A DNA stretch of 64,000 nucleotides, taken from positions 1,612,001 through 1,676,000 of the forward strand of contig OZ014416.1 in NCBI GenBank assembly GCA_963965975.1, read 5' to 3'. The stretch comes from Xestospongia bergquistia. Lineage: Eukaryota > Porifera > Demospongiae > Haplosclerida > Petrosiidae. Under the pieces are notes generated by a model. It had not been told where the DNA came from and did not search any database. It saw nothing but the letters and a program-made list of their open reading frames with translations. Below are positions 3,249 through 55,335 of this stretch, piece by piece. The position numbers and the translations under genes were made by a program. Numbering within the stretch: the first letter of the stretch is position 1; every line of letters begins with the position of its first letter.

Positions 3249-6200
3249 CTATCATAATAAATAGATAGTTGGTATGTATATATTAAAACATTGTGTTTTA
3301 CCAGTAGATGTGTCATTAGCAGATATTTCTTCAATTTCAATTTCTAAACAAAATTTAAAATAAGAAAATTAATTAGGAGATAGCATAATTATAATTTTCA
3401 TCTTTACTAACCATGAGTTGATTCAAACCAAGACCAACAAGGATGAGAACCATTTTCTTGAGTACATCGTATAACATCCTTTTTACTTGTACAAAAAAGA
3501 GTCCATTTATCTTCATCCCAGACAGTTGCGACATGAGTGCCTTCCACTTTACATGGACAATAAATACCAATCTCTGGTTGCATTTCTTTACTGATTCTTC
3601 TTGTTGTAATGGTTTCATTGATAGCTCTAAATAACTCTTTCTTTACTTCAAATTGATCTTCAGTGAATTCGCAGTGAATCTCAAACACGTTTTGCTCTTC
3701 AATAAAACTAATTTTTCCTCCACCAATCTTTCTTAATGTTATATAATTAGAGTAGACTTTGGAGTTGGACTCATCAATAACCCACAAGGATCTACCATGA
3801 TGTGTTAGTGATAGTAGGTGGACAATCATAGCACAAAAGAGACCAATTGGAGCACCTTTCTTAAAGTAAAACAGCAAAGGACATGAGGTAGAATTGTGTA
3901 CAGGATTGACTTCTGATGGATCAATTAATGGTAGCAATGCTGGCATGAAAAATTTGCTATCAGGTAATTCTGCAGCAATCAAAAGGTGCTGGAATATTTT
4001 TAAAATTTCTGAGCTAAACAATGGAAAACTAGAAGATATTTTCTTACATTTTTGAGACTTAGCAAATACGTCTTTGGAGACTAAACCATGATCAGCCATC
4101 TTTTTCATATCAACTGCCCCCGGACCAACACTAACTCCATTTCGTATTTTGCAGACAAGTATCATCAGTTCACTAACTACTTCAATCAAACTGTGGGGGA
4201 GGACAAACACTAAATCACTCACTCCAGGGTAATATAAGATGGTGTTGAGGAGATAAAAAAATTTAAGAGCACTCTGTATTTCTTCTATATGTAAACCCAA
4301 TCCTAGACCAGTAGCTTGACACTCTTCCAAGCTAAGTACTCCACAACTTGCAATGGCTTCTTGTCGTAACAAAATTTCGAAAGCATACCACCTTAATGGG
4401 ATTTTAACTTTGAATGCTTGATCCTTTAATTCAGCACGAATCTCTTTAATCACTGGATCATCAAACACACCTTGAGAAGCTTTACGACCATCAACTTCAT
4501 ACAAAATTTTTCCACTAGTAACATCATGGAATGACAAATTGCCCTCTATAGATTCGAATATTTTAGTGAGTTTTTTTTCTTTCTCCTCAATGGTTTCCAC
4601 TTCTTTCTTTAGTTTTTCTTCATACTCATCATGATGAGTAGCAATGGTAATGATTTTAAGCTTTTCAGGAGGTTTGATAATGACCTGAGATAGCTCAGTA
4701 TCAATGATCGATTGTTGCTGTTGAGCACTAGAATTAACCATGAGTATGAGACGTTTGAGGAGTGTCTCAACAGTTGGAGAATGTCCACTTACAATGTACT
4801 TTCCGTCTTCACATTGTAATACAGTAGAGGATTGACTAGATAGATCTTCAGCTAGATTAGTAACTAGCATAAGAACTGATGCACATGGTATAAAGGCTTG
4901 TAACAACTGTTGAAACTGAATTTGTCCTCCAGAGTCAATAAAGTACAGCCATTCTTTATGTAGAGTGAGCTTAACACCTTTTGTTGAAGCTTCATTAACG
5001 ATTTCTGACAGTTGCTTAGCTGCAGCTTCATTTATTGTTGGCAACTGATTAAGAGGCTCTAATGACATATGAGGTGAAACTACTGTAGCAGTGTTATTGA
5101 TAACTGGAAGCTTGGATTTTGGTTTACTACTACTGACAATGGGCTTCTTTGTGACTACAGTACTAATGAATGGTTTTAGTGGTAGTACTGGGTAACTAAA
5201 ATCTTTGTGAAGATCTTGCTCTTCAATCAGTGATCTAACTTCATTGGCAAATTTTTCGATCATTTTTTCATCATCGACTAGTTCCCAGCGATATTCATTC
5301 AGCTGACCATACTGACTCATAGAGAATTCTCCAATAGCAATTTGTGGAGACTCAACACAACCTGTGCTGATATTATTCTCATAAGGTTAAGAGAGAATTA
5401 GACATTTGACTGATGTTTTACCAGCTCTAGCTGGACCTTGGACAACAACTTTCGTAATACTAGTTTCAATCGATTCTCCTTGAAGAGCACTATGAAGATT
5501 TTTTTGATCTAAAGTGTTTGTAAAGAATCAGTACAGTTTGATAATTATCAATGAATAGCTACTTATAAAATTTGTTATTTACAGTGTTTAATTGCTTTAG
5601 AAACTCTAAGAAGCCATATAATAATCTTACATGTGACAACTTTATTAGCTACTAAGTAATGAAGTGACCTCATCCTGAAACCTATACATACAAAAAATAA
5701 AAACATACCAATTTCAGTGAATTCATTGACATTTAAAGAAACTACTTCTTGCTAAAAAGTTTAAAATAGAATTTATTATATCTATATATAGCATTACTCA
5801 ATTACCTTATCAATTCTAAGAGCTGAACTAGCTGGCTTTTGTAAATCAATTGCAAATGACTTCTATTAACAGTAAAATATATAATTATTATCGATATCTT
5901 AATAGATAAATAGTGTTATTCTACCTTTCTCTGAAAAAGGCTTGTAATTCTTTTAAAAACAGATACTTTTTGTTCCTATTAAAAATAATTACAGCACAAA
6001 TTAATTAACATATCATTTTTAGCATTTACCTTTAGAACTTGTCTAGATAATGTTTCAAAAGCCTCATTAATGTTAATATTCCTTTCTGCTGATGTCTCAA
6101 AAAATAACATCTTTAGTTTTCCAGCCAACTCCTCTCCTCTCTCTTTTAGGACTTGTCTTTCAGATTCCATATCTAACTTATTACCAACTAATATACATTG

Positions 6201-8913
6201 TACATTTCGTGAGGAATGCTAAAATAAACCCAAATTAGTGATTTGATAAGAACATACATACTCACAGCTTCAATATTTTGCAGCCATCTTGTAATATTAT
6301 CAAAAGAACATTGACTAGTAATATCATACACCAACATAATACCCTGTATAGCAATAAAGGTATACAATACATTTTATATTAATGATATACCATGGCTCTT
6401 GAATAATGTGGCATGGTTGTTACATCAGATATTTTATTTCCCGAAATATCTATTATTTCTAGACTCAATTTAACATGTTGATGATTATGATCTACTAGTT
6501 CTATTGTTTTAACTGTGACAACAATATCTATTATGAAGTATTATTATAATACAAATAATAAACAAACAATAATACCTACCATTCGATATATTAGAGAAGA
6601 CACAATTAAAGGACTGACAAATACATGTCTTTCCTATACCACTGTCTCCAATTACTAATATGGGTGTGGTATAATCCTAAATAACAGTTTAATATAGGTC
6701 ATACTTTGAGCTATAATAAACACCTTATTTGTAGCATTGCTGTCTTCAATGGTATTTGTAAGACCTTTCTAGATGAAAGTGTAACAACTAATGAGCAATG
6801 ATAGACTAACCTCCTTTAACACAACTGTTATAAGTGTTTCAAAAAGTTTGTCAATATTATCTCCAGTCAATGCTGATGTCTCCACAAATGGCATGCCATA
6901 ATCTAAGCTAAATTCCTTTCCTCTCTCTGTATCAATTTGTCTTTCAAGCTCTAGATCTGACTTGTTACCAACCAAAATGTACACTGTATCTAGTCCAGAA
7001 CGCCGCCTCTATAGGTGATCAATACATAGACCATATATTTGAAGACAAGACTTACTCTAAAAAGGTTCACCCAGTCAACAAGTATGCCAAGTTTTTTCAT
7101 TGTCAGAAATGTCATAAGTCAATATGACACCCTATAAATGATGTGAAATTCTTCTTAACAAAATGCCTCATTGGTTGCTACAACATTTTAAAAGATATAT
7201 TTTCAATACTTTCTAGTGGAAATGTTTCTTTTCTAATACCAAATTTCAACCAGTTATGCAATCTTATTACATTTGCAGTAAGAGCAAATATAGACATTCT
7301 TTGATATAAAATCACAATAATGCAAAATGCTCTATGACATGTGATTAAAAGTGATAACCATAACAATTAATAGAGAGAAATGTCACTTACACCAGCACTC
7401 AAGTTATCTGGATTATCTAGATGGTCTATTTCTTTTGGTGAAACTTGAAATTCATGTAATTCCAACAGAATTTTCTTGCCTTGAATATCAACTTCCTTAT
7501 CTATAAAATTAATCAAGAATTATTAATTTCAAATGGAAGACATGTCATAAAATCATAATGCTGACAGAATTCAATTTTGAAGTCACAACTATTAATTTTG
7601 TAACTGTCACACCCAAAGACTAATAGATGTATACATACATACATACATACATAAATACATACAAATACATACATATATACATACACACATATTATATATA
7701 TATATATATATATATCATATATATATATATATAATATATATATATATCATGATAATATTCATAGCCATACATATTTTATGGAGTGTCAGTTCTATATCAC
7801 ACGTAGAGACCTCATTGCAGATTAATATTTGAAAATATTGTACCCACTTAATTCCTTCTTCATTAACAGAAAATCAGGAGGTTTATATAGCTATAGACTT
7901 GATGACAAACTTTATCAATTGTCATTATTGACAAGTCTATAAGTGTTATAAACCTGCCAACCTGAGAATTTACAATACTATTACAGCCACATGCTATATG
8001 ATGGAGCAACATTAGCAGGTTAGTATAATGAATCTCAAAGTTAATAAACCTCCCAACTCAGGATTTTGTTAGACATATTACCCTCAAGTGATATCTTTTA
8101 CTAATTCTCTCATTAGTAGGTTTATCCCTTTTGATTTAGTAACACCGAATTATTATCTACTTCTGAATATTTAAGTAATAAACACTGAAATGGGATAGAT
8201 AGTATAGACTACAGGTCATGTAGTCTATACTATCTATGGTCATGGTCACCTTACTATGACCACACCCACTAAATTGCAAACCAGCAGCCACACCCCTACA
8301 TTCTCAAAAATAATGCTTGACCAAAGCATTGTCTTTTGCACAAATTTTGACCTCTACTAATGTTCCCACAGTTTACTCATACCTATTGTAATGTCATCTG
8401 TGTCTCTTTTCGAGCACAGGACCTCTACAACTACTGCCTCATCATTTCTATCATACTCAGTATACAACAAGGTGGCCTCTCCTTTAAGTACTAAAAGGAA
8501 AGATCAGAGATTTCAAAGCTAACATGACCACTTCACAGCCTCAACAACCACTTCTGAGTCTTTGTGTATTGTTAATTATTAACCAGCAAAGAGTTAATAA
8601 TTGGTTTCATTTTCTCCCGTTTGCAACTCAATGATTATATAACGCATATAGACTTCTGAACCACATTATAGAAAACACACACACACACACATACACAATA
8701 TTGTGATAGGACTTCTATATTTTTGATGGCGACTTCTTATGTTTTGATCACTGAGGTAACTACCAGTTGTGTAGCGATGGATAATAGATGATTTTCCAAC
8801 ACCAATATCTCCAGCAACAATAATCTTTACTTTATTTAATATGTCCTGCTCAATAATAAAATACAATCCTAGTAACACTTCATTGAGTATAAAAACAAAC
8901 TTACATAATCCAT
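2878..8913 (-). CDS. Gene B: twin Rab-like GTPase - ROC-COR - Death domain protein, with one in-frame stop
   Basis: Multi-exon gene. Start ATG at 8913 (M-D-Y, donor GTAAGT). GTPase 1: P-loop GDIGVGKSS (about 8750-8846), LELHEF exon (7395-7502), YDISDNEK (7050-7132), VGNKSDL and ETSALTGDN (6810-7012). A linker exon (6724-6771, KGLTNTIEDSNATNK) leads in frame into GTPase 2: GDSGIGKT (6590-6677), DISGNK (6393-6530), YDITSQ (6266-6344), VGNKLDM and FFETSA (6031-6219). Three small exons (5926-5976, 5816-5862, 5710-5753) end in NEFTEI and join in phase to the ROC-COR exon (3412-5508), a small acidic exon (3302-3343) and the Death exon (2878-3248). Exon lengths of the last three keep phase exactly. 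The TAA at 5387-5389 interrupts the ROC domain, so the gene may be a pseudogene, a polymorphic null or carry a sequence error. Likely cytosolic GTP-dependent scaffold signalling to death-fold partners; this is inference. Confidence 0.75.
3412..5508 (-). CDS. ROC-COR exon of gene B
   Basis: One 2097-nt exon, phase 2 in and phase 1 out. It holds a P-loop GPARAGKTS, a switch II motif FIDSGGQ, a THHD motif in place of NKxD (THxD is usual in ROC domains), then the COR-like stretch [14 protein letters not shown]...GVLSLEEC...[11 protein letters not shown] and a C-terminal part ending [10 protein letters not shown]. About 45 residues after the exon start, the paralogues read LILSQPYES; here the Gln codon CAA is TAA (5387-5389). 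Downstream of the stop the frame is open for more than 640 codons, with a possible restart Met at 5320 that would lack the P-loop. Confidence 0.8.
7627..7748. repeat. Microsatellite (ACAT)n and (TA)n
   Basis: Runs of 'acat' followed by long 'atatat' tracts in a gene B intron. The rest of the 7503-8700 intron holds one hairpin (8196-8237) and an (AC)n run at 8674-8690, and nothing coding. Confidence 0.9.
8196..8237. repeat. Perfect short hairpin
   Basis: GATAGTATAGACTAC, a 7-nt loop, then GTAGTCTATACTATC. It lies in the intron before the P-loop exon of gene B. Function unknown; it may be a foldback scar. Confidence 0.7.
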
Positions 8914-9331: not shown

Positions 9332-10499
9332 TCAATGAAATGGTTGTTGCTCGGGATCTCTATAACCACCATCGTCAGATGAATAAAACTCTTCTAATTG
9401 CCATTGGAGGGTCTCAAAAGTGGGACGTGTCTCAGGTTCTTCTCTCCAACAATCTAACATAATATTATAAAGTTTCTCTGGACAATTTTGTGGAGCAGGC
9501 ATACGATATCCTTGTTGTAGAGCTTCTAGTGTCTGTGCATTTGTCATTCCGGGATAAGGGAAACGGCCGTAGGTAACAATCTCATATAAGACAATACCAT
9601 ATGACCAGACGTCAGCTTTGATTGTGAATCTGTTGTACATAGCTGCTTCAGGTGCTGTCCATTTGATAGGGAATTTAGCACCAGTGTGTGCTTCATAAAT
9701 ATCTTCATCAATTACACGAGCAAGACCAAAATCTGCTACTTTACATATCATGTGCTCACCTACTAAGATATTACGGGCTGCCAGATCACGATGGATGTAG
9801 TTTTGAGACTCCAAATATGCCATTCCTGCAGCTACCTGTGCTGACATGTCAATAAGCTGTGGTTGCTGTAGGCCCCGCCCATCAGCTCGGAGATAATCTA
9901 GGAGAGCACCGTGTTTCATAAGTTCTGTAACAATATAAATAGGTTCCTCGTCTGTGCAAACAGCATATAACTGTATTAACTTGGGATGACGAAGTCTCTT
10001 CATTAATGAGGCTTCTTGTAAGAACTCATGTGGTGACATTGTCCCTGGTTTTAACGTTTTCACAGCTACAGATGTGGTACCATTCCACAATGCTTCCCAC
10101 ACTTCTCCAAATTGCCCCGCCCCCAAACGACGGACCATTTGTATAGTTCGTCGATCAATTTCCCATTCTTCATTAGCTTTATGTGAGAGACCAGCTGTTT
10201 GTGGTTTCTCGGGTTCGATACAAGGTGCAACGAGGTGACAACAGAGTCCATCTGCTTGTCTCTGGTAGTATGAAACCAGTTCTGAAATAGAATTAAAGGT
10301 AGCTTTTCTAGTGATAAAGAAGGAGCCGTTATCTAGACGTTTAATTTTATAATGTCGGACTCTCTCATGATCACGAATTGATAGCGAGAAATCTCCAGGA
10401 TTGGTCTCACTGTCTCGAATGAGATAAGCACCGAGTTGATTGACAGGAAGTTGAAGAAGTTTCTCAGCATCAACTCTCTTTATTTTACCAAAATACCAT
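9332..10499 (-). CDS. Gene C: Src-type SH2-tyrosine kinase exon without a visible SH3 exon
   Basis: One 1168-nt exon, acceptor at 10499, phase matching the SH3-to-SH2 junction of genes D and E (x-x-A then TGG TAT). SH2: WYFGKIKR...AYLIRDSE with the phosphotyrosine-binding Arg. Kinase: [31 protein letters not shown], activation-loop EDIYEA, KWTAPE. The C-terminal tail [12 protein letters not shown] carries a Tyr placed like the inhibitory tail tyrosine of Src. All catalytic residues are present. No SH3 or N-terminal exon occurs between 10500 and the stop of gene D at 12117. The exon may use an unidentified upstream exon, share the 5' exons of gene D by alternative splicing, or start at the Met at 10510. 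Phosphorylates protein tyrosines, presumably near the membrane if a lipidated N-terminus is spliced on. Confidence 0.85.
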
Positions 10500-10503
10500 C
10501 TAT

Positions 10504-12116
10504 AGATCACAAAGGAAAAGTTGCTATTTCACTCTGTACACGAATTAATATAATAACATCTTTAAATAAGGATATATTATTTAGATGGTTTCCCTTATTA
10601 AATGGAAATAATATAAAGAAAATACAAGCAATCAAAGTAGTTGTGTAGGAGTAAAGGTGATAAAATAACCTCCATTGTTACTTATCTACACAGAGGATGT
10701 CCCTGTAATAACGTAAGCTATTTTAGATATTAACTTTTGGTAAAGTACATAAGAAAACATACACTCCTCACATTCTTTGGTTACAAGATTCACAGTATAA
10801 AAATACTCACTATATAGTACACACTCTATTACTAACCTATGATTGTTATGACAACCAAATGGAATTACCCGTTTTGTGTAAAGTTAACATACCACAGCCA
10901 TATAAGTTATCAACCACATCACCTGACTATGTTACTATATATAGACACAATCCTAAAATAGTAACTTGTTTGGCTGTACAAAATAATTACATGCCAACAC
11001 TAACTAGCCATATCTTAGATAATACATTACTATGTATCTGTATAATATACAATTTACACATTATTTACATGATAAGATGTAGTGATGTAGTGACTAGTCA
11101 AATGATGTCAACTGTCTATTATAAAGTAGTGGCTGCTATCTTAGGAATGTTAAGACTCTTGGCTGAGATTTTTGGGAGAAAGTAACAATGTGTATATATA
11201 CCTTTTACAATAACAAAGTCTAAATTAAGGACAAACATTCTGATGTTAGACCCATATAATAAAATAATACTATATACATGTTATTACAACTCAATAATAT
11301 ATAAGTGAATACATATATATATGCTAAGGAAGTTTCTAAAGTGTTTATAAATGATCATTGCAGTAACTGTTAACAGATGTCCTCTTGTGTTATGTCAACA
11401 CAATCACTTTAACAGTTATATAACAAGTCTCTTCCCACTCATTTGATTTGAAGGATACAAATATACATATGTACACTTACATAAAACCTAGATACCTACT
11501 ACAAGATTTGTACTACATATAGGTATGTGTGTATTTAATGATGCATGGCAATCACACACTAGACAAGTGTCTCATGTTTGCAGTGTTAGCACTTGTATAT
11601 GGATAGTTTTGAAGCCTTGTTAACAAGTTGTAGCTCCATTTATTCAATTTTATTTCAGAAGTGTATTACTTTCCTTCATAAAAACATATAAAATGAATCT
11701 TGTTTCAAATTTTAGTCAGATGGTCTTGACAATTTTTTGACTCACACAATATTGATTCAAGTAACAGCTTAAATAATTTTAAAGGGAAAAGTTATAAAAA
11801 CAATACATGGAATGGCTTGGTTATTATTGTATGCACACACACATACTATATAATATTAGTCTGTGATAAATAGCACACACAATATATGTGGTCAACATAA
11901 TATATAAATATAATACCAGAGACATATACAGAATAATACAATGAATATGATTAGTATCAAAAAGCTAATAATATTCATTGGTGAGAAAATAACACGAGAC
12001 AGACAGACAGAAAAATTTGATAAAATAGAGTATGTCTATGTTTTAGTTGGTTTATCTTTTAAAAGATGATGTCACATCTAGTAGGTGTGGTCAGTAAATT
12101 AGCTTGGTGTATGTTA
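10504..12116. other. Intergenic stretch between genes D and C
   Basis: AT-rich. An open frame on the plus strand at 10859-11185 has no recognisable motif and I do not count it as a gene. No SH3 exon signature (the reverse complement of YIPSNYV coding) is present. Short 'acacaca' and 'agacagacag' runs occur at about 11833 and 12000. Confidence 0.6.
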
Positions 12117-14724
12117 TTAGTTTCCAAAGTTTTCAGGATCACGATATCCACCTTCAGTAGCTGTGTAGAACTCTTCTAGGCGCCACTGAAGTGACTCAAA
12201 TGTAGGTCTGTTGGCTGGCTCTTCCCTCCAGCACTCTAACATAACATCGTGTAGCTCCTTAGGGCAATTTGCTGGGCAGCCCATGCGATATCCCTGAGGA
12301 AGTTTCTCTAAAACTTCAGCATTGGTCATACCAGGATATGGAAAGCGACCATAAGTAATGATCTCATATAAGACAATACCAAATGACCAAATGTCAGATT
12401 TGATGGTAAATCTGTTATATAAAGCTGCTTCAGGTGCAGTCCATTTTATAGGGAACTTAGCACCAGTCTGTGCCTCATAAATATCTTCATCAATCACACG
12501 AGCAAGACCAAAATCTGCTACTTTACACATCATGTGATCACCTACTAAGATATTACGAGCTGCAAGATCTCGATGGATGTAGTTCTGAGTCTCCAAATAT
12601 GCCATTCCTGCAGCTACTTGAGCTGACATATCGATAAGTTGATTTTGTTGAAGAGAGCGTCCCTCTCCTCGAAGATACTCCAGCAAACTACCATATTTCA
12701 TGAGCTCTGTGATGATGAAAATTGGTTCTTCTCTAGTACATACAGCATACAACTGGATCAACTTTGGATGACGTAGTTTCTTCATTAGAGCTGCCTCTTG
12801 TAAGAACTCCTGTGGTGACATAGTACCTGTTTTCAATGTTTTCACAGCAACTGCAGTAGTACCATTCCATAGTCCTTCCCACACTTCACCGAATTGCCCT
12901 GCCCCTAAGCGACGTAACAGACGAATCTGTCGACGATCAATCTCCCACTCTTCATTAGCTTGCTTTGAAAGTCCAACAGTTTGAGGTTTCTCAACAGAAA
13001 GACAAGGATATTTTAGCTCAATACACAGGCCATCAGCTTGAATCTGATAATATTGAATTAACTCTGGAATAGTTGCAAACTGGACACGACGAGTGACAAA
13101 GAATGATCCATTTTCAAGTCGTCGGATTTTATAATGACGCACTCGATCTGTATCTCTTACAGATAGTGAGTAGTCTCCTGGAGTTGTCTCACTGTCCCTT
13201 ACTAGGTAAGAAGCATACTGATTAAAAGGCATCATGAGTTGCTTCTCGGCATCATTTCTTTTAATCTTGCCAAAATACCACCTAAGGCAAGAGAGAAAAA
13301 AAAACGAAGCTGTAAAAATGCCCCGAAGCAAAACCCACAGAACATAAAACAATATAAAAACAAATGAATTAGTTATTAATATCTCGTAGTATGCTATTAT
13401 GTTCTGGTAAAAAAGAAAGCGTATTTCGATTTACATGGGGTTCAAGTTTGCGTGCAACACCTGAGAATAAAAAGGGTTAAGAAATAGATTGGTAGGGGTC
13501 ACATGACATACCATAACAACAATTCTAATTATCAGTACAACAAAACAGCAATACTCTCAATTTACAAAACCCAACAAAAAGGCCGAGTCAAACGGCTTAT
13601 AGTAGATCACATTGTAATTGGAGTTTATTTAAAGTTTAAAACAACAATGGCATTTGACAACTATCAACATCTTTCAAACTATATACATATAATTTATACA
13701 TGTACACACATATATACATGAGCACGAGGCAGGAATGAGATGGGGTCCTAAAATAAACACAACATTAAGTTGTGAACATCAAATTAAAAAGCCATTACTA
13801 AGTGCTACACACCCACCCACACACAAAAGCACACTAAAGCTTAGTAATAACGTGATAATCGTGGCAGGCTTCTCTTTTAGAGTATGTGGTCAACCAGTCA
13901 TTACTATTGACATTATTACAGGTTGTATATAATTATATAGCACTCTTAAAATCACATTAAGTTAATTGTCTAAACTATAAAGAGTCTAATAACACAATAT
14001 GTAAATACAGATAAGATTAAAGCCAGCTTTGAAGGTAAATTTAAAAGATTTGTGGAATAAGCTATGAGAGTGAACATCAAGAACTATGTAGTACTAAGAT
14101 TATCAGTAGGCTATATCTACAGTAGATATAGTAGATTGGTTCTTGTTGAATAATTCTAGTTCATTGTAAGTGAAGCTATATAAATAAATACACAATGATG
14201 TAAGTAGTACAAGACTACAAGTAGTGTGGTAAGAGAGTACTGGTAATGTCTTGAGACAATTCTGATTCATTAATGTCTAGAGACATCTCTGATCTCACAT
14301 AGGATGATTACACAATTTGATAACAACAATTTTCAGTTGTCTGTACAGGTTTATAGTTCATATTACCACCACATAAAAGTAAAGGAAGGAGGATACTTCA
14401 TGTATATAATATAACCACAGCTCCAACTACAAATAATTCAAATTTTGTCAAGTTCCTTTACAATAGTAAATACACTACAAACCATTTTCTTTGTCATAGA
14501 CAAACACAACTATACTATAATACAGTTTAGCTATACTATTTGCAAACATACACGTAAGGTAACTGAAATATTGCACTTCAACAGAACTCCACTAAAAGCT
14601 ATGACTTCATATCCACTACCTTCAAAATCCTTTATAATAAAAGAAGCAACAGAGATGATTTGCCTGGTTTAATATTTCATTACACAATTTAATTAGTAGC
14701 AACAGTGACCTCTATGCCTGCCAC

Positions 14725-14774
<50 letters not shown>

Positions 14775-16187
14775 TACTGTGCATTGAACCTTACAAAATA
14801 AACATGCATTTATTTCAACATGTAAACAGCATGACGATTGCAACATAAACTTTTAAAATGAAACTATTTCACATACAGGTAGATGATACTATGTAGACAA
14901 AAAATGGGACATTGTTTTTGCAACTGGTCTCCTTTGGTTTTGTTAAACTACAATTTGGTCGAGCAAAGCTATGCTTTCTTATTGATTCATGCAGCACTAG
15001 AACACAAAACTTGTAACAGTCAATAATATCCTTCAACAAGGACAAACATTATAATGGCATGCCATAATGACAGTTTGTTATTTACTGTCTACAGATAAGT
15101 TCCAATGGTTGCTCAACATCTTCACTGAATTAACAGAAAAATATGACATGTTTAGTCTAATGTGAATAAACACAACTAAAAAGCACTAAAATCATAAGTC
15201 CTACATTAACAAGCACAAACAGACATTTGTCTTCTTACACAGTAACACATACACACACTTCAGTCAGTCTCATACAAAAGAAAACATTCACTCATATATA
15301 AGCTTTCACAGCCAGTATATAATACATTCCCAATACCAGGAATTACCTTACACACAGGAAACACAAAATGAACTCATTCCCATTGTAAAAAGCTATTCAC
15401 AGTCTAGTACATAATTACATATACATCATCTTCACTTACTCTTCAGCATCCAAGCTCTTCCATTCAGCGACATAATTACTAGGGATGTACCCTTCTTTGC
15501 CAGTGCTCTTACTACGAGCAAACCACCAATCTCCTTCATCAGTACTAATTATATAGAGCAAGTCACCTAGAGAAAGACGCAAGGAGGATAATTAAATAAA
15601 AATGAAAGAAATAAATATATAGTAAAAAAGAAACAAACCAACGAGATAATATTAGGAGATAAGTACACATGTAAATAAGTAAAAATTAAAAACAATTAAC
15701 AACAATCTTATAAGGTATGTTATTATAGCTTTACACATTATAGAGGTGATGAAGGTTAATTTAACATTATCTTAAATCATATATACAATTCTATTGTGTG
15801 TTTTATTGTGTTCAAAGATTTTCTTTACCTTTTTTGAATGACAAATCATCATCTGTTCTGCTATCATAGTCATATTTTCCAACAAACACTGGGTAATTTG
15901 GTTCTGGTTCTATCTTACCAATAGGTCCTGGAGGAGGGACTACAGCTCTATCAAAGAGAAGAGAGAATGAACCCTTAATGATTTTGTCATGGCCTTCCTT
16001 ACTTTCCCTGAAACGAGGATGACACCTGTTGCTGATGGTAGGGTTGTTGGAAGGCACTCATAGGCTGCCCGCCAGGTTGAGGGTACCCTACTCCGGCGGG
16101 TTGAGGGAATCCTTGTTGCTGGGCTGGATGTTGAGCTGGATGCTTTTTAGAATGTCCATCTTTCGTTTTGCTGCTAATACAACCCAT
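12117..16187 (-). CDS. Gene D: complete Src-family tyrosine kinase (531 aa)
   Basis: Four exons: 16003-16187, 15829-15947, 15440-15566 and 12117-13281. Their lengths sum to 1596 nt, exactly 532 codons with stop. N-terminus MGCISSKTK: Gly2 for myristoylation and Cys3 for palmitoylation, followed by a Gln/Pro-rich unique region. SH3 about residues 84-142 ([29 protein letters not shown]). SH2 from residue 145 ([15 protein letters not shown]). Kinase: [38 protein letters not shown] activation loop, KWTAPE, tail [11 protein letters not shown]. Every regulatory element of Src is present, including the SH2-kinase linker EKPQTVG. This is the best-preserved kinase of the array and the likely template for the others. 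Expected to act at the inner plasma membrane downstream of receptors and adhesion. Confidence 0.93.
13282..15439. other. Large intron of gene D with (AC)n microsatellite
   Basis: 2.2-kb intron between the SH3 and SH2 exons. It contains an (AC)n run at about 14730-14772. The last 130 bp before the SH3 exon (15309-15439) recur almost identically at 63322-63456 in gene J. No coding sequence is supported. Confidence 0.7.
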
Positions 16188-16293
16188 CCTTTAATTCTTT
16201 ATAAAGAGACTTTGTCTCGCAATTCTTCAGTTGATATTTGAGATACTACGAAGTTAAGAGATATTGCAGAGAAGGAAAATGTAGTTATTGTAA

Positions 16294-16322
16294 AGCAATG
16301 GCGTCGCACTACTAACCACTTC
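16294..16322 (-). promoter_or_regulatory. Conserved block upstream of gene D, shared with 40264-40292
   Basis: GCAATGGCGTCG followed by a TACTA...CC block, about 110 bp before the gene D start codon. A copy matching about 21 of 26 bases lies at 40264-40292, upstream of gene H. The reverse-complement core CGACGCCATTGC resembles YY1-type initiator motifs. This suggests a shared core promoter or first 5' UTR exon. Inference from two copies only. Confidence 0.4.
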
Positions 16323-16834
16323 TTCCTCCTCAAACTCAAAACAGCGGAACCAAAAGGAAGCCCTGCCCTTTTTCATCACCGCAAATACCTAATATTCAAA
16401 CTAAAATAAATAATTTTTAGTACACAGTCCGTTAAATTAAAATATTCTGGTATCTTCAAAGTCATTAAAAATTAATTGCTAAGTATTGAAGCCACTCATT
16501 TTATCGGTTCACATATTGACTGTGATCAATTAAATTAATACTTATAATTATATAAAAATATTCATTATAGAGGTTATAAACTTGAGTCAGTGGTCAGATG
16601 GTAACACAAATTATATGTTTATTAGAGAAGAAAAACACACTATGTTTCAAAGCCTCCTTCCTTAGAAAAAAGACAACAGAGTGGATTGCTTGAGACACCA
16701 TTCAAATTTATGACAATAGTTTCTGCCAGCAGACTGATATAAATGTCAAAACCAGCTGAGATATTGAATGTCACATTTTGTATTGTCTAGTTTGATTAGA
16801 TGCCAAGTATATCATACATACTTATCATTCAGCT

Positions 16835-19766
<2,932 letters not shown>

Positions 19767-20589: not shown

Positions 20590-20951
20590 TCACACACTGT
20601 CAGAGTCAAAAGTATATGCGTCAATGTACTTAGAATAAATTTTGGGTCGAGCTAAAAATTGAGAAATTTCCATTGCAGTTTGTTTTTTACCAACAATCTT
20701 ACTCTCTAGTGCTGAGATAACTGTACTCCAGGTCACAGGAGTGGGTTGCTCATCAAGCCAAATCTGCAACATATCTGCAAGTTTTAATGCTTCACTTAAA
20801 CTGCTATGTCGTAATGACTGTAACTTCCCATTAGATACTTTTAATACAATACCAATATTCTCCCATACATCAACAACATCAGCTAGCAGGTTTACTAGAT
20901 CATGTTTGTCAGGCATCTTGTTTAATACTTTACTAAGATCCATTTCATTAC
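20590..20951 (-). CDS. Death-domain terminal exon of gene F (type 1)
   Basis: Acceptor at 20951 gives G-N-E-M-D-L-S-K-V. The Death domain reads [20 protein letters not shown], then [20 protein letters not shown] and [19 protein letters not shown], and ends at a stop after [14 protein letters not shown]. About 85 percent like gene B's domain by eye. Confidence 0.8.
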
Positions 20952-23900
20952 CTAATAATCAAAAGTAACTACACAGACATGTAACTTGTACTGCTAACCA
21001 GTTAATATTTCATATAATGCCTTTTTACAACACAATGCTTGAACTTCATTTACTAGTAATTAAAACATAATATGTCATTTCTGCTATTATAACATAATTT
21101 ACTTACCATGAGCAGACTCAAACCAAGACCAACAAGGATGAGAACTGTATTCTGGAGTATAATATATAACATCTTTTTTACAAGTACAATAAAGAGTCCA
21201 TTGGTCTTCATCCCAGATGGTAGCAACATGTACAGCTTCCACTTTACATGGACAGTAAAAACCAACCTCTGGTTGCATTTCTTTAAAAATCCGCCTTGTT
21301 ATAGTGGTGTCATTGATAGCTCTGATTAACTCTTTCTTTAATTCCACTTGATCTTCAATTAGTTCATAATGAATCTTGAAAACATTGTGATCTTCAATAA
21401 AACTGACCTTTCCTCTACCAATCTTCCTTAAAGTTATGTAATTTGAATATATCTTAGAGTTGGACTCATCAATAACCCACAATGATCTACCATGATGTGT
21501 TAGAGATAGTAGATGAACTATCAGAGCACAAAAGAGACCAATTGGAGCACCTTTCTTAAAGTAAAACAGCAAAGGACATGAGGTAGAATTGTATGTAGGA
21601 TTGACTTTTGACGGATCGATTAAAGGTAGCAATGCTGGCATGAAAAATTTGTTATCAGGTAATTCTGTGGCAATCAAAAGGTGCTGGAATATTTTAAGCA
21701 CTTCTGAGCTAAAGGATTGGAAATAGGAAGATATCTTAACACTTTTTTGAGACTTAGCAAAGACATCTTTTGAAATGATACCACGATCAGCCATTTTCTT
21801 TGTGTCATCTGTTCCTCGTCCAACATTAAATCCACTTCGTATCTTGCAGACAGATATCATCAGTTCACTGACCACTTCAATCAAACTGTGGGGAAGGATG
21901 AACACTAAATCACTCACTCCAGGATAATATAAGATGGTATTGAGGAGATAGAATAATTTAAGAGCACTCTGTATTTCTTCTATTTCCAAACCCAATCCTA
22001 GACCAGTAGCTTGACACTCTTCCAAGCTAAGTACTCCACAACTTTTAATGGCTTTCTGTCGTAATAGAATTTCAAATGCATACCACCTTAATGGGATATT
22101 GACTTTAAATGCTTGATCCTTTAATTCAGCACGAATCTCTTTAATCACTGGATCATCAAACACACCTTGAGAAGCTTTACGACCATCAATTTCAGACAAT
22201 ATCTTTCCACTAGTGACATTATGATAAGACAGATTGCCTTCAATTGATTGAAATATCTTAGCAAGCTTTTCTTCTTTCTCTTCAATGCTTTCCACTACAT
22301 CTTCATTTTTACGTCGTTCTTCATACTTGTCACGATGGGTAGCAAGTGCTATGATTTTAAGCTTTTCTAGAGGTTTCATAATGATCTGAGATAGCTCAGT
22401 ATCACTGACTAATTGTTGCTGTTGAGCACTAGAATTAACCATGAGTACAAGACGTTTGAGGAGTGTCTCAACAGTTGGGGAGTGACCACTTGCATTGTAT
22501 TCTCCATCTTCACATTGTAATACAGTAGAGGATTGGCTAGAGAAATCTTCAGCTAGATTAGTAACTAGCATAAGGACTGATGCACATGGTATAAAGGCTT
22601 GTAACAACTGTTGAAACTGAATCTGTCCTCCAGAGTCAATGAAGTAAAGCCATTCTTTGTGTAAAGTGAGCTTAATGCCCTTTGTAGAAGCTTTATTGAC
22701 AATTTCAGACAACTGTTTGGTAGCACTGTCATTTAGTTTTGGTGATTGAACAAGATTTTGGCTACTAGAAGTGACTGGAATACTAGCTTCAGATCTTCTG
22801 CTTCTGAAAAATAGTTTCTTTGCGGATGCAGTAACTTTACCAACAATTGATATTGGGGCTGGTACTGGTCCTGATGCAGGATGATCTAAATCTTCAATTT
22901 CATTGTTAGTATCTTCCTCTTTAATTAGAGATCTAACTTCATTAGCAAACTTTTCAATCATTTTTTCATCATCTACTAGTTCCCAGTAATATTCATTTAG
23001 CTGACCATACTGATTTAGAGAGAATTCTCCAATAGCAATTTGTGGAGACTCAACACAACCTGTACTGATATTACTCTCATAAGGTTGAGAGAGAATTAGG
23101 CATTTCACTGATGTTTTACCAGATCTAGCTGGACCTTGGACAACTACTTTCGTAATGCTAGTTTCAACAGTTTCACCAGATTTCAGAGCATTATGAAGAT
23201 TGCTTTGATCTACATAATGAATGCAATATTATTATAATTAGTATTGGTGCCAAAAAGATGAATTCTGTAATCTTTATTTGTATCATGTGTTTTAGACTGT
23301 ATGAAACAATGGTACTTAAGGGATTGCTATATTCTTTGCCATTTTTTGCCATTCTTATATCCTTACTTTTTTATTATATTTGTAATTACTAAATAATTCC
23401 TCACAATTGTGTGAAACTTACCAATTTCAGTAAATTGATTATTGCCTTGAGATGAGAGTTCATTACCTTGAGATGAGAGTTCATTACATTGAGATGAGAG
23501 TTCATTGCCTTGAGATGAGAGTTCGTTGCCATTAGACAAGCTTCCAAAGTTTTCAGGACAATGATATCTAGCTGTGTAGAACTCTTCCAGCTGAAACTGT
23601 AGTGACCCAAATGTAGGTCTGTTGGCTGGGTTTTCCTTCCAGCACTCTAACATTATATCATGTAGCTTCTTAGGACAATTTGCTGGGCAACCCATACGAT
23701 ATCCTTGAGGAAGTTTCTCTAAAACTTCAGCATTGGTCATACCAGGATATGGAAAGCGACCATAGGTAATGATCTCATATAAGACAATACCAAATGACCA
23801 AATGTCAGATTTGATAGTAAATCTCTTATATAAAGCTACTTCAGGTGCTGTCCATTTTATGGGGAACTTGGCACCACTCTCAGCTTCATAAACATCTTTA

Positions 23901-26418
23901 TCAATCACACGAGCAAGACCAAAATCTGCTACTTTACACATCATGTGATCACCTACTAAGATATTACGAGCTCTAAGATCTCGATGGATATAGTTCTGAG
24001 TCTCCAAATATGCTATTCCTGCAGCTACTTGAGCTGACATATCAATAAGTTGATTTTGTTGAAGAGAGCGTCCCTCTCCTTGAAGATATTCCCATAAGCT
24101 ACCATATTTCATGAGCTCTGTGATGATGAAAATTGGTTCTTCTTTAGTACATACAGCATACAACTGGATTAACTTTGGATGACGTAGTTTCTTCATTAGA
24201 GCTGCCTCTTGTAAGAACTCCTGTGGTGACATAGTACCTGTTTTCAATGTTTTCACAGCAACTGCAGTAGTACCATTCCTTAGTCCTTCCCACACTTCAC
24301 TGAACTGCCCTGCTCCTAAGCGACGTATCAGACGAATCTGTCGACGATCAATCTCCCACTCATCATCAGAAAGACAAGGGTATCTTAACTCAACACACAG
24401 GCCATCAGCTTGAATCTGATAATATTGAATTAACTCTGGAATAGTTGCAAACTGGACACGACGAGTGACAAAAAATGATCCATTTTCAAGTCGTTGGATT
24501 TTATAATGATGCACTCGATCTGTATCTCTTACAGATAGTGAGTAGTCTCCTGGAGTTGTCTCACTGTCTCGTACTAGGTAAGAACCATACTGATTAAAAG
24601 ACATCATGAGTTGCTTCTCAGCATCATTTCTTTTAATCTTGCCAAAATACCACCTAAGGCAAGAGTGAGAGAGAGAGAAGTATGAACAGATTTTAGACAT
24701 TTTATATGTGGACAACAATCAAGGACTAATATGTGTATTAATAAACGATTTATTAAATATGATTATCACAAAATATTGGTAGATACTCCAATGTCGCTCT
24801 AAGTATCATATATTGTACTATTATCTGTTTTATTGTTTTTGTTCAAACCATAGAAAAAATATATAGTGGGTAACTATACACTATTTTTTCTACTAATTAA
24901 TGTTGATATTAAGATTATAGTTAATTAGCTATCAATAACTAATAAATATTTTGTTTGTTTTCTCACTTCTATAAGAAATACCAATTACTTACTATATCAA
25001 TACACTACTGACTAAACCCACATAGTTGTCTGTTGGTACATATTAATAACATAAATAATTAATTATTCATAAATTTAACTATCCATTTATTTGTACTTAC
25101 TTATGAGCATCCAAACTCTTCCAATCAGCGACATAATTGCTAGGGATGTACCCTTCTTTGCTGGTGATCTTATTACGAGCAAACCACCTATTTCCTTTAT
25201 TAGTACTAATTATATATAGAAGGTCACCTGAGTAAGGGTGAAAACAATAAAATAATGTTTCTAGAGGTGTGTCCAACTGATAATGTCTCAAGGAATGATG
25301 TTCCTTTGTTTTTATCTTGGCTTTTTGTGGAAGATTATCACTTGATAGACTGCCACAATGAGCTCAAGACTACTGTTGTTTCTAATTAAATGTTAAAAAA
25401 GATAACATGTATATTTTGCTTTCTTATCAGACCTCTGGGTAAAAACATACGTAGTATCTTGAGTGCTAGTAACAGAATGTCATACTTTAGTGCAAAATTA
25501 ACACATTTAAGTTCTGATGTTTATGGTTTAGGTTCTAGAGTATACTTTTAATTTCTCAAGGTGTTTCGTTACCAAAACTCTTCTACCAAAACTAATAATT
25601 AATTGTAACTAACTAAAACTCTGCTAGTAAATTGATACATACAAAGGTTGAAATAATAGAAGTGAATAACTAATCTTTCAGTACATCTAAGTAATCAATA
25701 CAACCTAATAGCACATACATGTATCATATATATATTTTGGAACATCTGTCATCTAATACCATATAGTACATTTAGTAGCTAGATTTCATGATAAATTAAA
25801 ATATCTAGACAGATATGCAAAACTAGTTATTGATCAAGGCTTTTTAGTAATACACTCATTTCTAGCTATATTATCTTCGTTCAATTAATCTCACCATTCA
25901 TTAGCACATGCAATGAGAATTTGCTTCATTTAGTGCACAGTATAACTTAGTTTATATTCTATAAACAAACATACTGAATAACTTATTAGCATTAGTCAAG
26001 TAATATTGCCCAGCACTTTATCTACATTAACTAAAACCACTTGTAATAATAAAACATTTAGTGAAGGAAATAAATAACTATAACTAATTAAAACTATTTA
26101 TCTAGGAGCAAAACTAATAAAACTAACTAAAGGTATTGTTCAAGAGCCAAAAACTAATTATAGCTATTTTGTAAAGCAAAAGTAACTACAACTAACTAAA
26201 AGTAATTGTGAAGAGGCCAAAACTAGCTATAAGTAATTAAAAGTTTAAAAAACCTAACTAAAACAATACTAATGAACAGAATTCGATTTTATACCTTTTT
26301 TGAAAGATAATTCATCATTTGTTCGACTATCATAATCATATTTCCCAACAAACACAGGATATTCATATTCATATCCAGTGTGCTGTACTAATGGCTTTTT
26401 AGTCTTGTCCTCTGTCAT
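20590..26418 (-). CDS. Gene F: SH3-SH2-tyrosine kinase-ROC-COR-Death fusion protein (1315 aa)
   Basis: Five exons: 26295-26418, 25101-25227, 23422-24653, 21117-23219 and 20590-20951. Lengths 124, 127, 1232, 2103 and 362 sum to 3948 nt, exactly 1316 codons with stop, with consistent intron phases and GT-AG borders. SH3 about 22-82; SH2 from Trp85 (GSYLVRDSE); kinase with [31 protein letters not shown] and KDVYEAE. Then comes a linker with four NELSSQ repeats ending NNQFTEI, the ROC domain (P-loop GPARSGKTS near 520, DSGGQ near 686, THRD near 785), COR-like region to about 1195, and Death domain 1196-1315. The start MTEDKTKK lacks Gly2, so no myristoylation. An upstream in-frame ATG at 26532 is possible. 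The SH2-kinase linker is about 13 residues shorter than in D. Probably a cytosolic tyrosine kinase coupled to a GTPase switch and a death-fold adaptor. Confidence 0.85.
21117..23219 (-). CDS. ROC-COR exon of gene F
   Basis: 2103 nt, open from acceptor to donor. It starts [19 protein letters not shown], then P-loop [10 protein letters not shown] basic variable spacer ([19 protein letters not shown]) separates the P-loop from switch [20 protein letters not shown] follows, then the COR-like segment [18 protein letters not shown] and [11 protein letters not shown]. The C-terminal part is Cys-containing: [16 protein letters not shown] and [10 protein letters not shown]. It is spliced in phase to the Death exon at 20951 without an intervening SH3 exon. 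Confidence 0.85.
23437..23530 (-). repeat. Coding 21-bp minisatellite: NELSSQG repeats in gene F linker
   Basis: Four tandem copies of a 21-bp unit encode NELSSQ(G/C) between the kinase tail and the FTEI splice motif. Genes I and J have three shorter copies. Gene H has an 18-bp version (NELSQV/A). A flexible, Ser/Gln-rich tether is implied. Confidence 0.85.
25228..26294. other. First intron of gene F, rich in degenerate 'aactaactaaaa' repeats
   Basis: 25600-25630 and 26030-26270 contain many imperfect 'ctaactaaaac' units. The same intron of gene I carries the same repeats (49500-49680, 50340-50580) plus an inserted element. No gene is seen. Confidence 0.6.
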
Positions 26419-30984: not shown

Positions 30985-33900
30985 TATGTTGTGATTGCTA
31001 CTGAGAAGTACTAACACAAGGTCCATCTATAATATATGAAATATAATGTATCAGGTAATTACAAATTACAAAAAAGAAGTGTGGTAATAATACTGCAACA
31101 AACTATTTATTTATTTAATCATTTTCATATACACTTGCATGTATCTATTATGACACTAATTCAATTATTCCATACCTGGTATAGTGCCAAGGAATTGACA
31201 GATTTCAATGGCAATTGATTTCTTCTGTAGAGGACCTTCTATAACACTGATGATGTTGTCCCATGTAGCAGGAGTGGGCTCATTATCCAACCAGCTCTGT
31301 AACATCTTGGACATCTTCACATCATCAGGTAAACTAGAATAATGCAATGATTCAATTGTGTTAGGATCCACTCCAAGTAGATCTCCCATCTGTTGCCATT
31401 TAGAAGTGACAGGAGAAAGCAACCTAAGCAGCACATATTTCTCTGGTTTGTTAGCTATGAAGTAAAGATATTATCAATGTAATGAAAAAATAAAACCAAC
31501 TACAAATGAACCCTCTCATATCATGTTTAGTATTGATAACAAGATTTTCATCATACCTTTAATTGGTACTGGTGGTATGAGAGAGAGATAGTTGCTTGGT
31601 GCCAGACCTTTTTGATCACCATAACATACTAACCACTGTTCATCTTGTTCTGTTTCCATGGTGATGACATCAACAATGTCACCTTCTTTGATGGTAATCT
31701 CATCATCTTTATCAGCAGTATAGGAGAACATAACTTTAGCTTTTAATTTGTTATTAAGTTGACCTCTTGAACAAGATAATGATGAAAGAGGGACAGGCTT
31801 CTCTAGAACTAGAAAATAATAAAAGTTGTTTTAATTTCAAATTTGTGGGCTAAAATGTCAGACAGACAAGACATCTTAGCTACAGGAAGCTTAGTATATA
31901 TAGTGGATACTGCAACCACAATAAATGATAATAGAGTAGGTTGGCTTATGATCAGTTGATTTAATATGTATAATCTTCTGAATATTACATTAATTGTAGA
32001 TCAAATGTCATCTATCAAGAGGTATGCAACTACAAAGCTACTTAAATGACCTAAAAATGATGATTACATGTTTAGGTCTATCCATGCAAGTATCATACCA
32101 TCATCACCAATATATTCATCATGTCTATAGAATGTTTAACATAAACACTAGTATAATAAGTATACTTCACATACCATCATTAGTGGACTCAAACCAAGAC
32201 CAACAAGGATGAGAACTGTTTTCTGGAGTATGTTGGATGACATTTTGTTTGTTTGAGCAAAGAAGAGTCCGATTGTCTTCTTCCCAGACAGTAGCAACAT
32301 GTATGCCTTCCACTTCACATGGACAATAAAAGGCAACTTTAGGTTGCATTTCTTTAATAATTTGTCTAATTATTATAGTTTCATTAATGGCATTGACTAG
32401 ATCTTTTTTTACTTCAACTTGATCTTTAGAGAATTCACAGTGAATTTCAAATAAGTCATGGTCTTCAACAAAACTGACTTTCCCACCAACCAATTTTTTC
32501 AATGTTACATAATTTGAATAACTCTTGAAGTCAGACTCATCAAGTATCCATAATGGCATACCATTAGGATGTGTTATAGAGAGTAGGCAGACAATCATGG
32601 CACAAAAGAGACCAATTGGAGCACCTTTCTCAAAGTAAAACAGCAAAGGACATGAGGTAGAATTGTGTACAGGATTGACTTCTGATGGATCAATTAAAGG
32701 TAGTAATGCTGGCATGAACACTTTGTTATCAGGTAACTCTGTGGCAATCAAAAGGTGCTGGAATATTTTAAGCACTTCTGAGCTAAAGGATTGGAAATAG
32801 GAAGATATCTTAACACTTTTTTGAGACTTAGCAAACACATCTTTTGAAATGATACCACGATCAGCCATTTTCTTAATATCAATTGCACCTCGTCCAACAT
32901 TAACTTCATTTCGTATTTTGCAGACAAGTATCATCAGTTCACTGACTACTTCAATCAAATTGTGGGGAAAGACAAATACTAAATCACTTACTCCAGGGTA
33001 ATATAAGATGGTGTTGAGGAGATAGAAGAATTTAAGAGCACTCTGTATTTCTTCTATATGTAAACCCAATCCTAGACCAGTAGCTTGACACTCTTCCAAA
33101 CTAAGTACTCCACAACCTTTAATGGCCTCTTGACGTAACAGAATTTCAAAAGCATACCACCTTAATGGGATATTAACTTTAAATGCTTGATCCTTTAATT
33201 CAGCACGAATATCTTTAATCACTGGATCATCAAACACACCTTGAGAAGCTTTACGACCATCAACTTCAGACAATATCTTTCCAGTAGTGACATCATGGTA
33301 AGACAGATTACCTTCAATAGATCGAAATATTTCAGAAAGCTTTTCTTCTTTCTTTTCAATAGTTTCAACTTCTTCTCCATTTTTAACTTGTTCCTCATAC
33401 TTGTCACGATGGGTAGCAAGGGTAATGATTTTAAGCTTTTCTGGAGGTTTAATAATGACCTGAGATAGCTCAGTATCATTGATTAACTGCTGCTGTTGAA
33501 CACTAGAATTAACCATGAGTATAAGATGTTTAAGGAGTGTCTCAACGGATGGAGAATGACCACTTACTTTGTATTCTCCATCTTCACATTGTAAGACAGT
33601 TGAGGATTGACTAGAAAGATCTTCAGCTAGATTAATAACTAGCATAAGGACTGATGCACATGGTATAAAGGCTTGTAACAACTGTTGAAACTGAATTTGC
33701 CCTCCAGAGTCAATAAAGTAAAGCCATTCTTTGTGTAGAGTAAGCTTAATGCCCTCAACAGAAGCTTTGTTGACAATATCAGACAACTGCTGGGTAGCAC
33801 TATCATTTACTTTTGGAAGCTGGACAGGTGGTAAGTCCAGAGAAAGCTCTACATCAATTTGGCTACTATTACTGACTGGGATCCTAGCTTTAGCATTTCT

Positions 33901-36900
33901 ATTTCTGACAAATAGTTTCTTTGTGAATGCAGTAACTTTACCAACAATTGATTTTGGGGCTGGTGTGGGTACTGCATTGCCTAAATCTATGTCTAAATCT
34001 TCATTTTCATTGTTAGAATCTTCATCATCTTGAATTAGAGATCTGACTTCATTGGCAAACTTTTCAATCATTTTTTCATCATCAACTAGTTCCCAGTGAC
34101 ACTCATTCAGATGACCATACTGACTCATAGAGAATTCTCCAATAGCAATTTGTGGAGACTCAACACAACCTGTACTGATATTACTCTCATAAGGTTGAGA
34201 AAGAATTAGACATTTGACTGATGTTTTACCAGCTCTAGCTGGACCTTGGACAACAGCTTTTGTAATACTAGTTTCAACGGATCCACCAGATTTCATAGCA
34301 TTATGAAGATTTCTTTGATCTATATAAGGAATATAATAATATTATAATTAACAATAATAATATTGTAATTAACATTTTATTAATATTAGTGCAAAAAGAC
34401 ATGCTAGTGTATTTGTATCACATGTTTTAGACTATATGAAGCACTGGCAAGTTACATAGGAATTGCTAGATCTGTAGTTTTGGCCTTTGGTGTCCATACA
34501 ATTTTTACTTTTTAAAATGGTTTTTATTGTATATACTTGTAATTACTAAATGATTCCTCACAATGGTATAAAACTGACCAATTTCAGTAAATTGATTATT
34601 GGCTTGAGAGAGTTCATTGGCATGAGAGAGCTCATTGACTTGAGAGAGCTCATTGACTTGAGAGAGTTCATTGACTTGAGAAAGCTCATTGGCTTGAGAG
34701 AGCTCATTGGCTTGAGATGAGAATTCATTAGCATGAAATGAAACCTCAGTAACATGAGAACATTCCATAAAATACAAGTCCTCTAGATGACATTGAAGAA
34801 ACTCAAATGTGGGCCGATCAGCTGCATTACCCCTCCAACAATCCAACATTATCTGGTATAGTGACTCAGGTGTATTTGTTGGACATGGCATACGATATCC
34901 CCTATTCACCTTTTGTAGAACTTCACTATTGGACATACCAGGATAAGGAATGCGGCCATATGTCACTAACTCTGTTAATAATATACCAAATGACCACACA
35001 TCAGATTTGATACTAAAACGATTGTACAAAGCAGCCTCTGGTGCTGTCCATTTAATAGGGATTTTTTCACCTTCAGGTGCACTATATTCATCATCAGCTA
35101 TCAGGCGTGCAAAACCAAAATTGGCAACATTTACAATGTTGTTTTCACCTACTAAGATATTACGAGCAGCCAGATCACGATGGATGTAGTTGTGCATTTC
35201 TAAGTATGCCATTCCAGCAGCAATCTGAGCAGCCATGTCAATGAGTTGTGGCAGCTGTAAACGTCGTCCTTCTTGGGACTGGAGGTAGTTAAGGAGGCTA
35301 CCCTTGGGCATAAGTTCTGTGATGATATATATTGGATCTTCTTTTGTGCAGACAGCATATAGTTGGATTAATTTGGAATGACGTAGTTTCTTCATGATGT
35401 GAGCTTCTTCAAGGAAAGCTTGTGGTTGCATAGTGCCTGATTTCAATGTCTTCACAGCAACTGGTGTTGTATTATTCCAAAGACCCTCATAGACCTCACC
35501 AAATTGGTCGGTACCAAGAAGCCTTAACAACGTAATAGATTGTCGAGGAATTTCCCACATATCCTTGACCTTATGGTAAAGGTCAATCTGAGGTTTCTCC
35601 AAGGCCATACGAAGGTTACAACATAGACCATAAGAGCTCTTTGTGTAATACTCTACCAGTTCTTTTAAAGTGCTAAAAACTGCTCGGTGAATAATAAAAT
35701 ACCCTCTTTTATCTAACTTCATAATAGGATAATGCCTGACTCTTTTACCACTTTGTATGGAAAGAAAATATTTGCCTGGTTTGGTCCCTGATTCTCGTAT
35801 GAGGAAAGTACCACGCATTGCATCATGAAGAAGCTCATTGGCTTTGTCAGATTCAATGGGACCAAAGTACCAGCTAAAGAAGAGGAAATAGATATGACAA
35901 CATAGGTAAAACAAACAAAGCATTTTAAAATCTAATTGATCATATTTGCTAAAATATACAATAAAAAATAATGAACACTGTCCTCGGGTTATATAGTCTT
36001 TAAACATTTAACATCAGAATTTGAACAAAGTTGCTGCTTCCTGACAAGATTATAATTATGAAAAGTCATCTTAAGATAGCTTTGATGGTACTTATATTAG
36101 CATAAAGTAATCATAAAGAAATCTTATGAAATAAAGAGCTTCAATATGACTTCTATGGAATATTGAAGCTATGTCTGAGTAACACCTAATTTATGTACAT
36201 GATTTTATTCTTTTGTTGAAAATTCACAAAATCACTGTCAAATTTAGCAGACCTTTTCATTCTTAACAGAATATAGAGCACGTTGCAATTGTATGACATT
36301 AAAATTAAAGGGAGGGTATCATGAAAAATCACTATATTTTTTTTTAATTTAAAAAGAATCCTTTGGTGATATATAGCTCAGCATATTTTTTTCAGATTTT
36401 TTCTGGCTACCATTAGCTAGAAAAAAATAGTTGTTTCCAGCTATTTTTCAATAAGCTACAGACGTTTCCTGTTGAGGTTGAAATTGGGTGGGGCCGTTAT
36501 GTGATGTCATCAAAGGGAGAGATTTCTGCTAATCCATGCGCATCTATACAAGTATAGACCTTTTACACAGCAAGGTGTGAACATGCTTTGCTGACAAACA
36601 CCTCTCTATGCAAGGATTTGACACGTTTGTCTCCAGAATACCAGACATCATCTTTAGAGGCCTACCACAGTGTGGTTATCCACTTTGCACCAAAGTCAAA
36701 TGCCTTTTCTTATCCAGGGATGCATTGCAGGTGTGTATTAATTTGTGAATTAAGGTTTCTTTTGCTTACTACCAAGTTATTTTTGTAAGAATAATTGTTA
36801 TTGCCTCCCATTATACAATTTTGCAGGTTGGAGTTGGCATCACTACACTTTAATGAAAACTCTAATCGTGATCAGGCAGTAACCAAACAGAGCAAGGAAC

Positions 36901-43447: not shown

Positions 43448-50798
<7,351 letters not shown>

Positions 50799-51459: not shown

Positions 51460-55335
<3,876 letters not shown>

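Follow-up and report, generated by a model that had tools for sequence, protein, structure and literature searches.

The consulted sections of a review of Roco proteins (PMC6337361) divide them into three groups, one of which, the DAPK1 group, combines a leading kinase with a Death domain. In these sections and in the parts seen of another Roco paper, the named kinases belong to the Ser/Thr or tyrosine-kinase-like types (PMC6337361, PMC2927912), and the available portion of a study of brown algae notes ROCOs from other organisms that carry N-terminal kinase and death domains, without giving the kinase type (PMC11378527). Here we describe gene F, a minus-strand gene in which a Src-type kinase head, a ROC-COR GTPase body and a Death domain appear to be joined. 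It lies in a stretch of 64,000 nucleotides of the genome of the sponge Xestospongia bergquistia (C6:1612001-1676000, with C6 standing for contig OZ014416.1), hereafter the window; the search space was the 146 Mb genome in 21 contigs.

The five exons of gene F total 3948 nt and translate into 1315 residues and one stop with no internal stops, and all four introns have GT-AG borders. Exon 1 (26418-26295, 124 nt) carries the start codon and the first half of an SH3 domain, the second half of which is in exon 2 (25227-25101, 127 nt). Exon 3 (24653-23422, 1232 nt) encodes SH2 and the tyrosine kinase and continues into a linker (23422..23578) that consists of an altered Src-type tail, RYHCPENFG, a series of NELSSQ repeats and the donor end NNQFTEI. 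After intron 3 (23421-23210, 212 nt, GT-AG), exon 4 (23209-21107, 2103 nt) encodes the ROC-COR tandem with its P-loop and exon 5 (20951-20590, 362 nt) the Death domain and the stop. Translation reproduced the exon lengths (124/127/1232/2103/362 nt), the 1316 codons and the GT-AG borders of the first-pass annotation and its stop-free kinase exon, whose frame is open through the repeat linker up to the NNQFTEI donor. The ROC acceptor, placed there at 23219, is actually at 23209. An open frame over the 156-nt linker would arise by chance in about 2-3% of cases, donor phase not yet being required (0.029 when nucleotides were shuffled; open in 200 of 9288 windows from stretches taken as non-coding).

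In Pfam, exons 1 and 2 joined matched SH3_1 (1.3e-11) and exon 3 matched SH2 (1e-26) and PK_Tyr_Ser-Thr (1.6e-94); among PDB sequences, the kinase exon was closest to Src, followed by Fgr and Hck. Gene F therefore has the SH3-SH2-tyrosine kinase order of Src family kinases. These kinases have an N-terminal myristoylation glycine and a regulatory tyrosine in the C-terminal tail. The N-terminus of gene F, MTEDKTKK, has no such glycine at position 2, and although a tyrosine is found near the position of the Src tail (RYHCPENFG), the chain runs on into the linker and ROC-COR-Death instead of ending in a regulatory tail; the free neighbouring Src copies end in a short tyrosine-bearing tail. The profile check proposed in the first-pass annotation for kinase, Roc, COR and Death bore out the kinase, whereas the ROC exon had no match in Pfam or NCBIfam, so that fold comparison was used instead. 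The closest solved structures to the predicted ROC-COR fold are those of LRRK/Roco proteins (VIA-align, Foldseek), and the predicted fold of exon 5 matches Death domains, including their helical arrangement. The ROC-COR and Death identities, which fall below Pfam thresholds, are supported by these predicted folds. Three PDB sequence matches of the ROC exon (best E 0.069) were judged to be due to chance, and the 152 matches of the Pfam Roc profile over the whole genome were unspecific, as Rab exons also score. The ROC G domain is directly followed by COR, as in Roco proteins, and the nucleotide-binding motifs G1, G3 and G4 are present, which predicts binding. In an alignment of 43 sequences, K31, T32 and S33 are found in at least 90%, and D191, G193-Q195 and D293 are invariant.

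Like DAPK1 (Roco group 3) as described in the consulted part of the review, gene F combines a leading kinase, ROC-COR and a Death domain C-terminal to them, with no leucine-rich repeats (LRR) (PMC6337361). However, the DAPK1 kinase is a calmodulin-dependent Ser/Thr kinase, whereas the head of gene F is of the Src type with SH3 and SH2. DAPK1 also carries ankyrin repeats; Pfam scans of the gene F exons gave no ankyrin match. LRRK1 and LRRK2 (Roco group 2) share the ROC-COR fold predicted for gene F, but the same part of the review places LRR at the front of LRRK proteins and their kinase after COR (PMC6337361), whereas in gene F the kinase exon precedes ROC and the Death exon with its stop follows.

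The first-pass annotation regarded the whole as a single gene, and this is supported by the open frame, the shared FTEI donor, the ROC frame without ATG and a second fused paralogue, K63. In our judgement, gene F is very probably one spliced gene, with a single protein made up of SH3-SH2-tyrosine kinase, repeat linker, ROC-COR and Death, as far as its nucleotide sequence can tell. The donor FTEI-G/GT (the slash marking the exon border) was found in all five Src-headed copies of the ROC exon and also in 9 of the 11 kinase-less, GTPase-headed copies described below, which makes it a part of ROC-COR genes. The Src exon enters this donor in frame in every case save K48, whose kinase frame is broken. 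Four copies besides F have a kinase exon followed by ROC with the FTEI donor between them, and three of these (K63, K36 and the copy at 1686-1689 kb) keep an open kinase frame as far as the donor. In five copies (F, R62, R47, R5 and that at 1686 kb), the ROC frame has no ATG ahead of the P-loop and therefore needs upstream sequence. An independent start of the ROC exon was accordingly rejected for these five; R34, which has a Met before its P-loop, falls outside this argument.

K63 has six open exons, all on the minus strand, that encode 1429 residues in the order SH3-SH2-tyrosine kinase-linker-ROC-COR-SH3-Death. Its first exon lies outside the window (C6:1677311-1677128) and is followed by the SH3 exon (63457..63580), the SH2-kinase-linker exon (62019..63277), with its donor after NNQFTEI, and the ROC-COR exon (59690..61816). 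An additional SH3 (58908..59165; the homologous frame in L040 matches SH3_1 at 8.9e-11) is inserted between COR and Death, and the last exon (58465..58802) runs from Death to an in-frame stop, although a donor-like GTATGA before the stop makes this 3' end provisional. Two further copies in the window have the same orientation. K36 has an SH2-kinase-linker exon with a type B head (34580..35872), in which DFG is replaced by NFG, a ROC-COR exon (32179..34317), SH3 (31785-31576) and Death (31455-31189); K48 has an SH2-kinase-linker exon (47144..48401) whose frame is broken between 47280 and 47266, a ROC-COR exon (44807..46936), SH3 (44269-44060) and Death (43927-43661). Death exons of two kinds follow K48, the one at 43927-43661 resembling that of K63 and another, frame-broken, at 43019-42751 resembling that of gene F.

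At least 16 copies of the ROC exon, at 75-100% identity, are found on C6. A Src-type exon precedes five of these 16, and Rab/Rho-like exons occur no more than 1.5 kb upstream of every one of the remaining 11 (11/11). The eleven GTPase-headed copies (L013-L017 and L019-L024) occupy C6:1534832-1617506 and 1909305-1911395; one that lies in the window (3413..6990, minus strand) has Rab-like exons at 6990-6027 and a ROC-COR exon at 5506-3413 with one in-frame stop. In L039, ROC-COR is preceded by a series of pieces from three or more GTPase domains. We are thus confident that this is a tandem ROC-COR-(SH3)-Death family in which the N-terminal heads, Rab/Rho-like GTPases in eleven close copies and Src in five, have been swapped. 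For 13 of the 14 distant ROC copies (L025-L038), the analysis extended to the upstream frames, and for three of these 13 it compared parts of them with Pfam. L025 adjoins a TAZ zinc finger frame (1.7e-6) in the upstream L043 (C3:358501-364500), and Pfam indicated a Ras-like frame near L029 and a Death-like frame below the cut-off near L035; such adjacency does not prove that the neighbouring frames belong to one gene.

The single-protein reading of gene F has to be weighed against three others, and the linker itself counts against it, as it seems unconstrained between F and K63 (nine non-synonymous changes to one synonymous). The locus could instead yield two products, a Src-like kinase that ends after the linker by polyadenylation or intron retention and a ROC-COR-Death protein from another promoter, with the joined frame as a relic or a minor isoform. 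This would agree with an AATAAA that both F and K36 have in intron 3, the in-frame stop that lies 19 codons past FTEI in F and the Met ahead of the P-loop in R34. However, the corresponding introns of K63 and K48 have no AATAAA, which, being in only two of four introns, was dismissed as a conserved poly(A) site; the donor phase is the same in all five Src-headed copies; no GTPase exons were found at 9.4-64 kb of the window; and the F ROC frame, as noted, has no ATG in front of the P-loop. Two separate products are on balance quite unlikely. Tandem repeats are difficult to assemble, but that unrelated exons were placed side by side in the assembly is highly improbable, given that the identical junction is found in five kinase-ROC pairs and that other contigs contain two linker-bearing kinase frames distinct from the five copies, P0122 and P0123. 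Finally, the fused genes could be by-products of unequal crossing-over in a decaying tandem array with no selected product. Broken copies (K48, R5 and the one at 1686 kb), the abundant exon fragments in the window, the lack of constraint on the linker and a ratio of non-synonymous to synonymous substitution (dN/dS) of 0.96 between the heads of K63 and K48 all speak for decay. It is nonetheless an unlikely account of genes whose frames are open over 1315 (F) and 1429 (K63) codons, whose ROC-COR exons have dN/dS values of 0.20-0.33 among the four in the window, and whose linker-bearing kinase exons have the two further representatives on other contigs.

The kinase tree shows two well-supported lineages of Src heads, types A and B, with fused copies in both and a tentative order of branching inside each, and the fused label changes at least twice when counted on well-supported branches. 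This label clusters on the kinase tree no more than chance would allow (a value as low came up in 67 of 500 shuffles). Between F and K36, synonymous divergence (dS) is 1.84 in the kinase and 0.33 in the ROC exon, so that heads and bodies have different histories. In protein sequence, the nearest relative of the gene F head is the free neighbour K13 (91%), with K63 at 85%, whereas its dS is 0.14 to K13 and to K63 alike. A free type-B Src at 1696 kb has the C-terminus QYHHANEL-TAA, which we take to be much like a Src tail, and type-B linkers start from about this site as repeats with ANELSSQ or ANELSQ. The fusion may thus have begun with the loss of the stop codon from a Src gene; the ANEL unit of its tail would then have been repeated to form the linker, the Src exon would have been joined to a small linker exon spliced to ROC, and type-A heads would have taken over from type-B heads in some copies.

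The protein could work as a GTP-dependent dimer switch with a signalling head and a Death output. The head would sense or be acted on, through phosphotyrosine binding by SH2, activation of the kinase or attack on a bait; the ROC-COR dimer would change with its GTP state, and the Death domain would then recruit a death-fold adaptor. Taken together, a one-gene Src-ROC-COR-Death protein in a head-swapped family, with this origin and this switch, is the account that we favour, albeit with some reserve; that its output is death or immune switching can be suggested only tentatively.

Linker-bearing heads number seven, the five Src-headed copies plus P0122 and P0123. The DFG Asp is gone in four of them (K36, the 1688 kb copy, P0122 and P0123) and the alpha-C Glu in K48, whereas neither is lost in any of six free Src copies (two of the six read from tree-input frames); free K18 has an altered activation loop. 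The heads of F and K63 retain Lys, Glu, HRD, Asn and DFG, with Ser in place of the third loop Gly, and judging from these residues an active kinase is possible in gene F. The union of tyrosine phosphorylation with a GTP switch and a death fold, put forward in the first-pass annotation, is therefore plausible for F, but five of the seven linker heads lack a catalytic residue. Plant NLRs carry integrated domains as bait. Likewise, the Src and Rab/Rho heads might mimic signalling proteins attacked by invaders, set on a ROC-COR-Death switch for which the kinase activity of the head would be dispensable. The catalytic losses would suit such baits, as would the dN/dS of 0.68 in three fused type-A heads (K48 included up to its break) against 0.31 in their ROC exons, and the branches of fused heads, which are longer than those of the nearest free copies, K13 and that at 1696 kb. 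The GTPase heads nearest ROC also point this way: the switch II exon was readable by pattern in 4 of 11, and in all four DxxGQ is, by eye, lost and NKxD kept. However, the residues of F and K63 are intact, free K18 and K10 have long branches too, free kinase pairs reach dN/dS values of up to 0.26-0.41, one of the four GTPase heads (L023) is frame-broken downstream, and an excess is hardly seen in the last Rab exon, at 0.39 (11 copies) against 0.33 in ROC (only 4 of 11 entered). Differing heads and lost catalytic residues fit baits, and relaxed constraint would account for the same pattern. We therefore find the bait explanation doubtful, although worth considering; it overlaps with the favoured account of a head-swapped switch, and the confidence attached to each does not sum to one. 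More doubtful still is an animal class of intracellular receptors in which Rab, Rho and Src baits, swapped at one linker junction on ROC-COR-Death and in part pseudo-enzymes, would report tampering with Src or small-GTPase signalling and answer by death-fold assembly.

The window also contains three free Src-type kinase exons (17983-16862, 13280-12120 and 10498-9377, within 9332..18154, minus strand), each with a stop shortly after the kinase and no linker. Remnants of another gene at 29922-27114 comprise a ROC-COR end (29922-29546), SH3 (29083-28889), Death (28704-28460) and a Death fragment (27257-27114). Fragments of Src-type exons are found at 57076-53952 and 41600-40720, and comparable fragments lie in L044 and at C6:1680-1683 kb. 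A 341-aa frame at 52149-53174 looks reverse transcriptase-like by eye and has no Pfam match. Genome-wide there are at least 150 matches to Death exons, nearly all of them about 32-48% identical to that of gene F.

The first-pass annotation considered a Src head on a ROC-COR-Death body to be undescribed, and no Src-headed Roco protein was found in the literature searched, which mostly did not cover subscription papers. The order kinase, ROC-COR, Death is nevertheless known from DAPK1 in the consulted review sections, and N-terminal kinases on other ROCOs are mentioned (PMC6337361, PMC11378527), so that what is new here is that the head is of the Src type and that heads have been swapped. Brown-algal LRR-ROCO genes, proposed immune receptors, are likewise ROC-COR genes diversified by exon shuffling, but in the portion of that study seen it is LRR exons that are shuffled (PMC11378527), whereas here entire head domains differ. 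In the sponge Amphimedon, Death/TRADD-N proteins likewise pair Death-like domains with a wide range of partners, including S/T/Y kinases and SH2, in a lineage-specific way; the architectures in the consulted part of that account are built on TRADD-N and include no Src-ROC-COR-Death protein (PMC8195603). The Src head of gene F, beside Rab- and Rho-headed sisters and near-identical free Src copies, offers a natural comparison of how ROC-COR couples to attached domains, and the family suggests a route by which a Src tail could become a linker and escape tail control. A head that an invader modifies and that triggers the receptor, as in plant NLR-ID receptors, is at most hinted at here, by analogy, through the differing heads on one body and the lost catalytic residues. 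If head swapping serves recognition, this family would be an animal counterpart of the integrated domains of plant NLRs and of the brown-algal ROCO receptors.
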